The notes under the pieces: generated by a model | The model's input: the letters and a program-made list of their open reading frames with translations, nothing else | What the model was told of the DNA's origin: nothing | Database searches by the model: none | In this document: piece after piece, positions 44,241 to 47,042 of the stretch | How the letters are laid out: every line of letters starts with the position of its first letter | Numbering within the stretch: the first letter of the stretch is position 1 | Translations under genes and position numbers: made by a program | Source of the DNA: Xylanimonas ulmi | GTDB taxonomy: Bacteria; Actinomycetota; Actinomycetes; Actinomycetales; Cellulomonadaceae | Direction: 5' to 3' | Assembly: GCF_004216535.1 (NCBI RefSeq) | Contig: NZ_SGWX01000001.1 | Location: 3,038,001-3,102,000 of the forward strand | DNA length: 64,000 nt

Positions 44241-44999
44241 TCAGAGCGCGGCGGCCGCGAGCGCGGCGGCCTCGCCCGCCCTCGCGATCTCGACCCGGTC
44301 GAGCGCCTCGATGGGCAGCGCCGACGACGCCCCGAGCCCGTGCGCCTCGGGATGCGCCGTCGTCCAGGTCGCCGCGACGCTGCGCCCGCCCGCGCGGTCC
44401 ACGAGCACGAGCTGGTAGGTCACCTCGGCCGGGTCGTAGCCGCCCGCCGCCGGCCCGCCGGTGAGCGCGTAGCGGCAGCTCCACTCCAGGCGGGTGCCCC
44501 AGGGCGTCGGGGTCGCGACCAGGTCGGCGTGCAGGCCCGTGTCGCCCACGGGGACCAGTTCGATCGTGCGCGCCGCCTCCGACGCGGCCGACGACGCCGG
44601 CGGCGCCGTGGGGCTCGTGTCCACCAGCCCACTCACCGGCCCACTCACCGATCCGCTCACCAGCCCGCCCGCGACGCCCGCGACGACCGCGAGCGCCGCC
44701 CCCGCCGCCGTCAGCCGAGCGCGATGGCGACGACGCCCGCGCCGCGCGGCCGCGGCCAGGCGCGCGAGGGGGAGAACGTCGCCCTCGGCGGGTTCGTCGC
44801 CGGCTCCCTGCCCCGCGCCCACCGCGCCCAGCAGGCCGGGCAGGCCCGCGAGCGCCGCCACAGCGTCGCGGCACGCGTCGCACCCGACCAGGTGGGCCTC
44901 GAAGTCGCGGCGTTCGCCCGGGCCGAGCGCGCCCAGCACGTACGCCCCGTCCCAGTCGGCGAACGGGTCGAAGGCGTCGGCGTGCGGATCGGGCCTCAC
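44241..44999 (-). CDS. Zinc-finger anti-sigma factor (RslA-like)
   Basis: 252 aa. The N-terminal zinc-finger anti-sigma motif is intact: His36-x3-Cys40-x2-Cys43 in AHLVGCDACRDAV. A basic stretch and one membrane helix follow (LTAAGAALAVVAGVAGGLVSG, about 95-117). The exported domain (about 140-250) carries a single WSC cysteine in LEWSCRYAL. Its ATG overlaps the sigL stop by 4 bp. It should hold the sigma factor at the membrane and release it on an oxidative or envelope signal, as M. tuberculosis RslA does with SigL. Confidence 0.88.
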   Translation of the reverse strand: MRPDPHADAFDPFADWDGAYVLGALGPGERRDFEAHLVGCDACRDAVAALAGLPGLLGAVGAGQGAGDEPAEGDVLPLARLAAAARRGRRRHRARLTAAGAALAVVAGVAGGLVSGSVSGPVSGLVDTSPTAPPASSAASEAARTIELVPVGDTGLHADLVATPTPWGTRLEWSCRYALTGGPAAGGYDPAEVTYQLVLVDRAGGRSVAATWTTAHPEAHGLGASSALPIEALDRVEIARAGEAAALAAAAL

Positions 45000-45499
45000 G
45001 GCGTGACTCCCCTCTCCTGGAGCGCGAGGCGCAGCGCGCGCATCGCGTAGTGCATGCGGGACTTGACGGTGCCGGGCGGCACACCGAGCTCATCGGCGAG
45101 CTGCGCCACCGACCGGTCCCCGTAGTACGCGCCGACGACGACGGCGCGGTGCTCGGGGGTGAGCGCGGCGAGCGCGTCGCCCACGAGCCAGGCGTCGAGC
45201 ACGGCCTGCGTGCGATCGGGCTCGGACTGCTCGGGCACGGCGGCGGTCGAGCGCTCGTGGGCGTACCGCGCGCTGCGCCGCGCGTCGATCACGAGGTGGT
45301 GCGCGACGGTGAACAGCCAGGCGCGCACCGAGTCGGGCGGGCGTTCGAGCACCTCGGGGTGGCGCCAGGCGCGCAGCAGGGTCTCCTGGACGACGTCACG
45401 CGTCTGCTCCTCGTCCGAGGTCAGGTGCCGGACGTAGCGGTGCAGCGCCGCGGCGTGGGCGCCGTGCACGGCCACCAGAAGATCGTCGTCGCGCGCCAC
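44996..45499 (-). CDS. sigL: ECF sigma factor, SigL-like
   Basis: 167 aa. Region 2 is YVRHLTSDEEQTRDVVQETLLRAWRHPEVL with RAWLFTVAHHLVIDARRSAR. Region 4 is LAALTPEHRAVVVGAYYGDRSVAQLADELGVPPGTVKSRMHYAMRALRLALQERGVTP. The wording, including the C-terminal LRLALQERGVT, is very close to M. tuberculosis SigL as I remember it. It is encoded between a YceI gene (3 bp away) and its anti-sigma. Two divergent promoters upstream carry TGAACC-N16-CGTCGT, matching the published SigL-type consensus (TGAACC / CGT), so it is probably autoregulated. Confidence 0.88.
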   Translation of the reverse strand: MARDDDLLVAVHGAHAAALHRYVRHLTSDEEQTRDVVQETLLRAWRHPEVLERPPDSVRAWLFTVAHHLVIDARRSARYAHERSTAAVPEQSEPDRTQAVLDAWLVGDALAALTPEHRAVVVGAYYGDRSVAQLADELGVPPGTVKSRMHYAMRALRLALQERGVTP

Positions 45500-45502
45500 G
45501 CC

Positions 45503-46210
45503 TCACTCCGGGGCCAGCACGAGCGAGAACTCGACCGAGCCCGCCGCCTCGACCGTGACGAACCCGAGCGACGGCGCCTCGACGCCGTAGTCGGCGAACG
45601 TGACCGGCACGCTGCCGACGACCTGGATCGCGTCGCCCCCACGGGTCTGCGCGACCTGCGCGGCGACGTCGACCCGCCGGGTCACGCCGTGGATCGTCAG
45701 GTCTCCCGTGAGGGTCACGGCGGTGGCGCCGTCGGGCAACGGGGTGGGCGAGGTGAGCGCGAAGGTCGCGGTCGGGAAGTCGCCGGTGCGCAAGGCGGTG
45801 CTGCGGAAGTACAGGTCGCGCGGCGGCTGGTCGGTGGCCACCGACGCCATGTCCACGGTGACGCTCGCCGCGGTGAGCGTGCCGTCGTCGAGCGTGACCT
45901 GCGCCCGCACCTGCGGCGTGCGGCCCGTCACGGTGGCGTCCTCGCCGCGCAGCACCTCCTCGACGCGGTAGCCCGCGTAGGACCCGTCTTGCGCGGTCCA
46001 CACGCCGTCGAGCCCGGCGGCGAGCGGCGCCGCGTCCGCGGCGTCGAGGGTCGGCGCGGCCTGCGCATTGCGGTCGGCCCAGCCGGCGTACAGGCCCGGC
46101 CCCCAGATCACGGCGGCGCCGACGAGCACGACGACGGCGCCCGCCACGCCGATCCCGACCTTGACCCGTGTGCGCACGATCCGCCCCTCCCCCGGACGCC
46201 GGAGCCGCAT
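45503..46210 (-). CDS. YceI-family exported protein
   Basis: 235 aa. An N-terminal membrane helix (VGIGVAGAVVVLVGAAVIWGPG) anchors a YceI lipocalin-like domain: DGVWTAQDGSYAGYRVEEVL, PQVRAQVTLDDGTLTAASVTVDMASV, FRSTALRTGDFPTATFALT, LTGDLTIHGVTRRVDV and VEFSLVL. YceI proteins bind polyisoprenoids or other lipids in the envelope. It is the first gene of the sigL operon and starts about 45 nt after a SigL-type promoter, so it is likely a SigL target. Confidence 0.9.
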   Translation of the reverse strand: MRLRRPGEGRIVRTRVKVGIGVAGAVVVLVGAAVIWGPGLYAGWADRNAQAAPTLDAADAAPLAAGLDGVWTAQDGSYAGYRVEEVLRGEDATVTGRTPQVRAQVTLDDGTLTAASVTVDMASVATDQPPRDLYFRSTALRTGDFPTATFALTSPTPLPDGATAVTLTGDLTIHGVTRRVDVAAQVAQTRGGDAIQVVGSVPVTFADYGVEAPSLGFVTVEAAGSVEFSLVLAPE

Positions 46211-46260: not shown

Positions 46261-46288
46261 ACGACGAGGCGCGCCGCCGCCCGGTTCA
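46261..46288 (-). promoter_or_regulatory. SigL-type promoter of the yceI-sigL-rslA operon
   Basis: On the minus strand, TGAACC (46288-46283) and CGTCGT (46266-46261) are separated by exactly 16 bp. The same hexamers and spacing occur in the divergent direction at 46375-46402. The expected start is about 45 nt before the yceI ATG. Confidence 0.72.
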
Positions 46289-46374
46289 ATCCTGCGCCCG
46301 CGGGCCCGACGCGGCCGCGGGTGGGCCGCGCGAGTGGGCCGAGCGGGCGGGCCGCGGGTGAGCAGCGGCGAGCG

Positions 46375-46402
46375 TGAACCGCGGCGGCCCACGGCTCGTC
46401 GT
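46375..46402 (+). promoter_or_regulatory. SigL-type promoter of the divergent lipoprotein gene
   Basis: TGAACC (46375-46380), a 16-bp spacer, and CGTCGT (46397-46402). It is identical in both boxes and in spacing to the promoter facing yceI. The lipoprotein ATG is at 46470, giving a leader of about 60 nt with a GAAAGGGG ribosome site. Confidence 0.72.
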
Positions 46403-46469: not shown

Positions 46470-47003
46470 ATGCGACGCGCATCACCACACCTCAGAGCCA
46501 TACCCGCCAGGGCAGTGCTCGCCGTCGGGCTCGCTCTCGGTCTGGCCGCCGTGGCGGCCGGTTGCGCGAGCGGCGGCGCCGCGGACCCCGGGCCGGCGGC
46601 CACGGCGTCGGCGCCACCCGGCACGGCGCTGTCCACCGCCCGCACCAGCCTCGGCGACGTCGTCGTGGACGGGCGTGGCATGACCGTCTACATCTACACA
46701 CCCGACCGGCCCGGCTCGGGCCGCAGCGCCTGCACGGGCGCGTGCGCCGCGCAGTGGCCCGCCGTCCACGCCGAGACCGCCACACCCCAGGTCCAGGGCG
46801 TCACGGCCGAAGTCGGCACGATCACGGGGACGGACGGCATGCTCCAGGTCACCCTCGACGGGCGCCCGCTGTACACCTACGCCGGTGACGGCGCCCCGGG
46901 CGACGTCACCGGTCAGGGGCTCGACGACGTGTGGTGGGCCGTCGCGCCCGACGGGGTCGAGGTCACCGAGGCTCCGGCGCCGCTCATGCCGGGCGGGTAC
47001 TGA
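46470..47003 (+). CDS. Secreted lipoprotein with PF03640-type repeats
   Basis: 177 aa from ATG 46470. The signal ends in the lipobox AAGC (near residue 29). The mature part holds two copies of the lipoprotein repeat: LGDVVVDGRGMTVYIYTPDRPGSGRSACTGACAAQWPAVH and GTDGMLQVTLDGRPLYTYAGDGAPGDVTGQGLDDVWWAVAPDG. This repeat occurs in many exported actinobacterial proteins of unknown role; the Cys pair in SACTGAC could form a disulphide. A SigL-type promoter upstream suggests it belongs to the envelope response run by sigL. The stop lies in a tandem repeat. Confidence 0.85.
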   Translation: MRRASPHLRAIPARAVLAVGLALGLAAVAAGCASGGAADPGPAATASAPPGTALSTARTSLGDVVVDGRGMTVYIYTPDRPGSGRSACTGACAAQWPAVHAETATPQVQGVTAEVGTITGTDGMLQVTLDGRPLYTYAGDGAPGDVTGQGLDDVWWAVAPDGVEVTEAPAPLMPGGY

Positions 47004-47042
47004 CCATCCGGGCCTGACCATCCGGGCCTGACCATCCGGGCC
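47001..47042. repeat. Three 14-bp tandem units starting at a stop codon
   Basis: TGACCATCCGGGCC is repeated at 47001, 47015 and 47029. The first TGA is the lipoprotein stop. Because 14 is not a multiple of 3, the three TGAs fall in three different frames. Confidence 0.8.

Follow-up and report, generated by a model that had tools for sequence, protein, structure and literature searches.

SigL is an ECF sigma factor known mainly from mycobacteria, where its redox sensor has been solved and its core task is unclear. In M. tuberculosis, RNA polymerase with SigL transcribes the sigL promoter (P-sigL), and the SigL −10 element reads T-12 G-11 N C/A A G after C-14 G-13 (PMC6372665). In the structure G-11 flips into a pocket, where Asp60 contacts it, and His54 contacts T-12; alanine in place of either residue abolishes the preference at the respective position (PMC6372665). 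On oxidation the anti-sigma factor RslA loses its zinc and forms a disulfide within its HxxxCxxC motif (PMC2877774).

The window, the whole 64,000-nt stretch of Xylanimonas ulmi DNA that was analysed, contains a locus that on sequence grounds is a variant of this SigL–RslA system (Table 1). The sigma factor is ∼56% identical to M. tuberculosis SigL over the aligned region and has His at the T-12-reading residue. As in M. tuberculosis, a zinc-motif RslA-like anti-sigma gene lies directly downstream, the operon has its own promoter upstream, and CGT comes before the −11 base; the TGAAC-type −35 and the 16-bp spacing are those of mycobacterial sigL loci. Unlike in M. tuberculosis, the −11 base is C rather than G, the aligned reader is Arg rather than Asp, the operon begins with yceI, and a divergent Lipoprotein_15 gene has a matching promoter of its own. 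Our literature search returned nothing that connects yceI or Lipoprotein_15 to SigL.

Table 1. Features of the sigL locus, in window coordinates
Feature	Position	Strand	Details
Predicted sigL-operon promoter	46261..46288	-	−35 TGAACC 46288-46283, 16-bp spacer, −10 region CGTCGT 46266-46261
Predicted lipoprotein promoter	46375..46402	+	−35 TGAACC 46375-46380, 16-bp spacer, −10 region CGTCGT 46397-46402
YceI-domain exported protein, first gene of operon	45503..46210	-	Pfam PF04264, 7.2e-24
SigL-type ECF sigma factor	44996..45499	-	phmmer, M. tuberculosis SigL 6dv9_F, 1.3e-49; NF007227 above cut-off
Arg53 codon	45341..45343	-	gap-free alignment to SigL Asp60, the −11-reading residue
RslA-like anti-sigma factor	44241..44999	-	zf-HC2, 1e-7; RslA 3hug_B, 1.5e-13
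Exported lipoprotein, divergent target	46470..47003	+	two Lipoprotein_15 repeats, PF03640, 8.9e-28

A reading made from the sequence only had taken the sigma factor for SigL, and database searches bore this out. Its best PDB match was M. tuberculosis SigL, the closest match to any non-SigL sigma factor reached 1.3e-13, and the NCBIfam model NF007227/PRK09645 scored above its curated cut-off. Its sequence thereby groups with SigL ahead of other ECF sigma factors, and it has regions 2 and 4. The adjoining anti-sigma factor had RslA as its sole PDB hit, carries the zinc motif H-x3-C-x2-C (as HLVGCDAC) and is predicted to contain a transmembrane segment. A SigL-type promoter (−35 TGAACC, 16 bp, CGT) precedes the operon. 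The window has C and Arg53 in place of a G at −11 read by Asp60; judged across the sequences compared, that G-11/Asp60 pairing is a mark of the mycobacterial subtype, not of the SigL family, and Gln, Glu and Arg types are also SigL-type. An HxxxCxxC ORF was found downstream in 165 of 170 sigL loci, and a strongly hydrophobic segment in 151 of the 155 downstream anti-sigma ORFs that were complete.

The start and stop codons of yceI, sigL and the anti-sigma gene nearly touch or overlap, as in an operon: sigL starts 3 bp beyond the yceI stop codon, and the start of the rslA-like gene overlaps the sigL stop. The GTG at 46177 is the more likely yceI start, because it closely follows GGGGGAGGGG and is the point from which the orthologues align, their conserved V-R-T/R-R start being matched by this reading. 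The genome has no PF03640 gene other than the divergent lipoprotein gene. The first repeat of this lipoprotein has a C-x3-C motif (SACTGAC here), which is conserved in the window gene and 15 orthologues and hints at a redox or metal function. Beginning at the lipoprotein stop codon is a 14-mer, TGACCATCCGGGCC, in three perfect head-to-tail copies (47001-47042).

Identical TGAACC-N16-CGTCGT motifs had been claimed on opposite strands between yceI and the lipoprotein gene, and both were present with zero mismatches. The −10 register of the sigL-operon promoter is C-14 G-13 T-12 C-11 G-10 T-9. It was fixed by the conserved 16-bp spacing, because one more CGT follows the minus-strand motif (CGTCGTCGT). 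TGAAC[CT]-Nk-CGT was also sought upstream of 170 sigL loci with the spacer left free (k = 10–24): k = 16 accounted for 146 hits and any other k for at most 21. Mycobacterial sigL loci have TGAACC/T-N16-CGTG (or CGTA, CGTT) ∼60–100 bp before sigL. Transcription is predicted to start at ∼46252 (minus strand) and ∼46411 (plus strand), with predicted leaders of ∼75 nt for yceI (from 46177) and ∼59 nt for the lipoprotein; these lengths are arithmetic from the −10 box rather than mapped ends.

The window has two exact copies of the motif where its dinucleotide shuffles predict 0.02, and none of 100 such shuffles reached two or more matches. Only 3 exact matches were found across the 3,965,098-base genome, the third within an IS110-type transposase ORF, and a whole-genome search with a reversed control pattern yielded 0. 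The shorter form TGAACC-N16-CGTC had six genomic matches, the divergent twin pair and four elsewhere, all inside long ORFs (an APC-type permease, a LicD-like protein, an IS110-type transposase and an ABC permease, names read from the translations rather than from a family search). The sequence-only reading had asked whether a genome scan would place the motif before envelope genes or spread it at random. In the strict form that we ran, the other matches in this genome lay in coding ORFs. A strict regulon search in four congeners gave 24 matches, of which 8 belonged to the twin pair, and no second conserved target. Most of the remaining matches were placed within ORFs and four were ambiguous, by a codon-composition heuristic that also mislabels some twin-pair sites. 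Weaker SigL promoters may exist elsewhere, which would be compatible with this result.

Conservation was followed in 30 loci with a close yceI, drawn from 150 genomes of the window's family. The −35/−10 pair with 16-bp spacing preceded yceI in 30/30, one locus having CGAACC for TGAACC; strict CGTC missed some yceI-side loci, and the full count was obtained with −11 left free and CGAACC accepted in that one. Information content in the 30 loci was 1.8–2.0 bits at the −35 positions and 2.0 bits in CGT, with a spacer mean of 0.7. The lipoprotein-side motif was present in 16/16 family loci with the lipoprotein and in 0/14 lacking it, and no other evidence argues as strongly for the plus-strand copy serving the lipoprotein. 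The two copies had been assigned to yceI-sigL-rslA and to the lipoprotein, respectively, and both assignments are supported by these counts, as is the further suggestion that SigL is autoregulated and has the lipoprotein in its regulon. By comparison of sequences, autoregulation with a co-regulated lipoprotein is well supported. Some family relatives (L037/L190, L041–L043, L063, L178, L188) have CGTGGT or CGTAGT before yceI while their SigL still has Arg.

The likeness to a published CGT-type −10 held in part: CGT is shared, but the −11 base is C here, versus the G preferred by M. tuberculosis SigL (PMC6372665). In the window SigL, His54 is retained (as His47) and Asp60 is replaced by Arg53; both window promoters have C at −11. 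We compared residue and base in 203 non-redundant SigL loci; scanning beyond the family covered 80 named SigL loci, 60 loci of the order, 29 phylum-wide and 90 from three further family searches. To assign the Asp60 equivalent we counted positions inside a 16-residue loop, since pairwise alignment had put residue 60 in the wrong place in one locus or more. With an Arg-type SigL the −11 base was C in 52, A in 13, T in 13 and G in 2 (n = 80). With Asp, Asn, Glu or Gln it was G in 76, A in 20, T in 17 and C in 3 (n = 116), and two of the three C cases were distant motif hits (at −603 and −824) that may be chance. The strict promoter pattern was absent in 50 loci of the scan. A group of seven loci with Pro at the Asp60 position had no SigL-type promoter within 1 kb upstream.

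The divergent-side promoters (motif within 260 bp) behaved alike, with C 22, T 12, A 4 and G 1 for Arg, and G 22, T 4, A 2 and C 0 for Asp, Asn, Glu or Gln. Both promoters of a divergent pair thus obey the same residue/base rule, and a −11 class shared on opposite strands, in separate DNA stretches, supports one sigma factor reading both.

In an earlier set of 136 loci the association had a Fisher p of 2e-22, with relatedness ignored. The residue class changed at least 7 times on a larger tree, few of these on supported branches, and an independent-pairs test, with only one or two supported contrasts, had no power. Pagel-type tests favoured dependence, with LR 37.4 (p 1.5e-7) when C was set against G and LR 26.9 (p 2e-5) when G was set against all other bases; they used one quick, weakly supported tree, are sensitive to it, and had some rates at bounds. 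The co-variation is likely to be real, and the solved contact helps; since the independent switches are few, a change of specificity is likely rather than proven. C stands at −11 in no more than 65% of Arg-type SigL loci, so Arg may act more by shutting out G than by requiring C.

We lean towards a reading in which a one-residue swap (Asp/Gln/Glu versus Arg) shifted the −10 preference of SigL while G and C replaced each other concertedly in its own and the divergent promoter. In this reading, different exported or membrane proteins, redox proteins among them, have also taken turns as the divergent target. A possible but less likely alternative is that these are SigL promoters whose −11 base goes unread by Arg-type sigmas, C reflecting shared ancestry without a new contact. 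This would agree with the loss of −11 specificity in Asp60Ala (PMC6372665), with the A or T found in 26/80 Arg-type loci and with the small number of independent switches. A lost reading should, however, admit G like C, and G is almost missing with Arg (2/80) despite the G+C-rich window. The Arg/C pairing is also found in three families besides the window's own, and the divergent-side counts (G in 1/39 with Arg, C in 0/28 with the other class) speak against an unread base as well.

That another ECF sigma of the same cell reads these promoters, with sigL merely linked to them, seems improbable. E. coli RpoE, which belongs to a separate ECF group, also requires a cytosine at its single flipped base (PMC8103513), a likeness drawn here at the level of the base. 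Against such a sigma, sigL keeps the motif from family to family even as the operon's first gene and the divergent gene are replaced, and the −11 base of the motif tracks the residue of the linked SigL. Chance coincidence of the twin motifs has a probability close to nil. The four other genomic matches to the shorter motif do look chance-like, lying within ORFs; the coincidence is nonetheless refuted for the pair by conservation (30/30 and 16/16 loci), and only 0.02 matches were expected in the window.

We think it very probable that the locus is an autoregulated SigL–RslA unit with a divergent target, one sigma serving both promoters; an Arg53-linked shift from G to C at −11 is likely. In the model we propose, the membrane-anchored, zinc-motif RslA-like anti-sigma factor would keep SigL inactive until a signal releases it; the parallel with M. 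tuberculosis RslA makes an oxidative signal probable. RNA polymerase with SigL would then initiate at both promoters, which would match because one sigma factor reads both. The leftward transcript would supply YceI together with more SigL and RslA, giving amplification and later shut-off, and the rightward transcript would supply the lipoprotein. In the window's lineage Arg53, replacing Asp60, would read −11 through a presumed contact with cytosine, moving the preference from G to C.

The divergent gene changes with lineage. In the window's family, and in several more, it encodes Lipoprotein_15. Amycolatopsis, Leifsonia and a Streptomyces have a Tat-type lipoprotein with a Rieske motif in this place, and further families, Microbacteriaceae among them, have a membrane protein of DUF2231 type (three DUF2231-like proteins were scanned, one of them without a Pfam hit). 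This suggests that the most conserved SigL outputs are SigL itself and one exported or membrane protein that depends on lineage (lipoprotein, Rieske protein or DUF2231 protein). The lineage-varying partners may point to envelope redox chemistry, a theme that a zinc-motif anti-sigma factor and a Rieske partner would fit. SigL may also offer a natural, readable case of an ECF sigma factor changing its promoter specificity along with its targets.

In ten loci the gene divergent to sigL encodes the Tat-type lipoprotein and is faced by a SigL-type promoter; the sequences read had a Rieske-type CTHQGC...CPCH motif, and PF00355 was confirmed for two. The small DUF2231-type membrane protein was divergent in seven loci. 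In several Microbacteriaceae-type loci, Lipoprotein_15 was found instead downstream of the anti-sigma gene.
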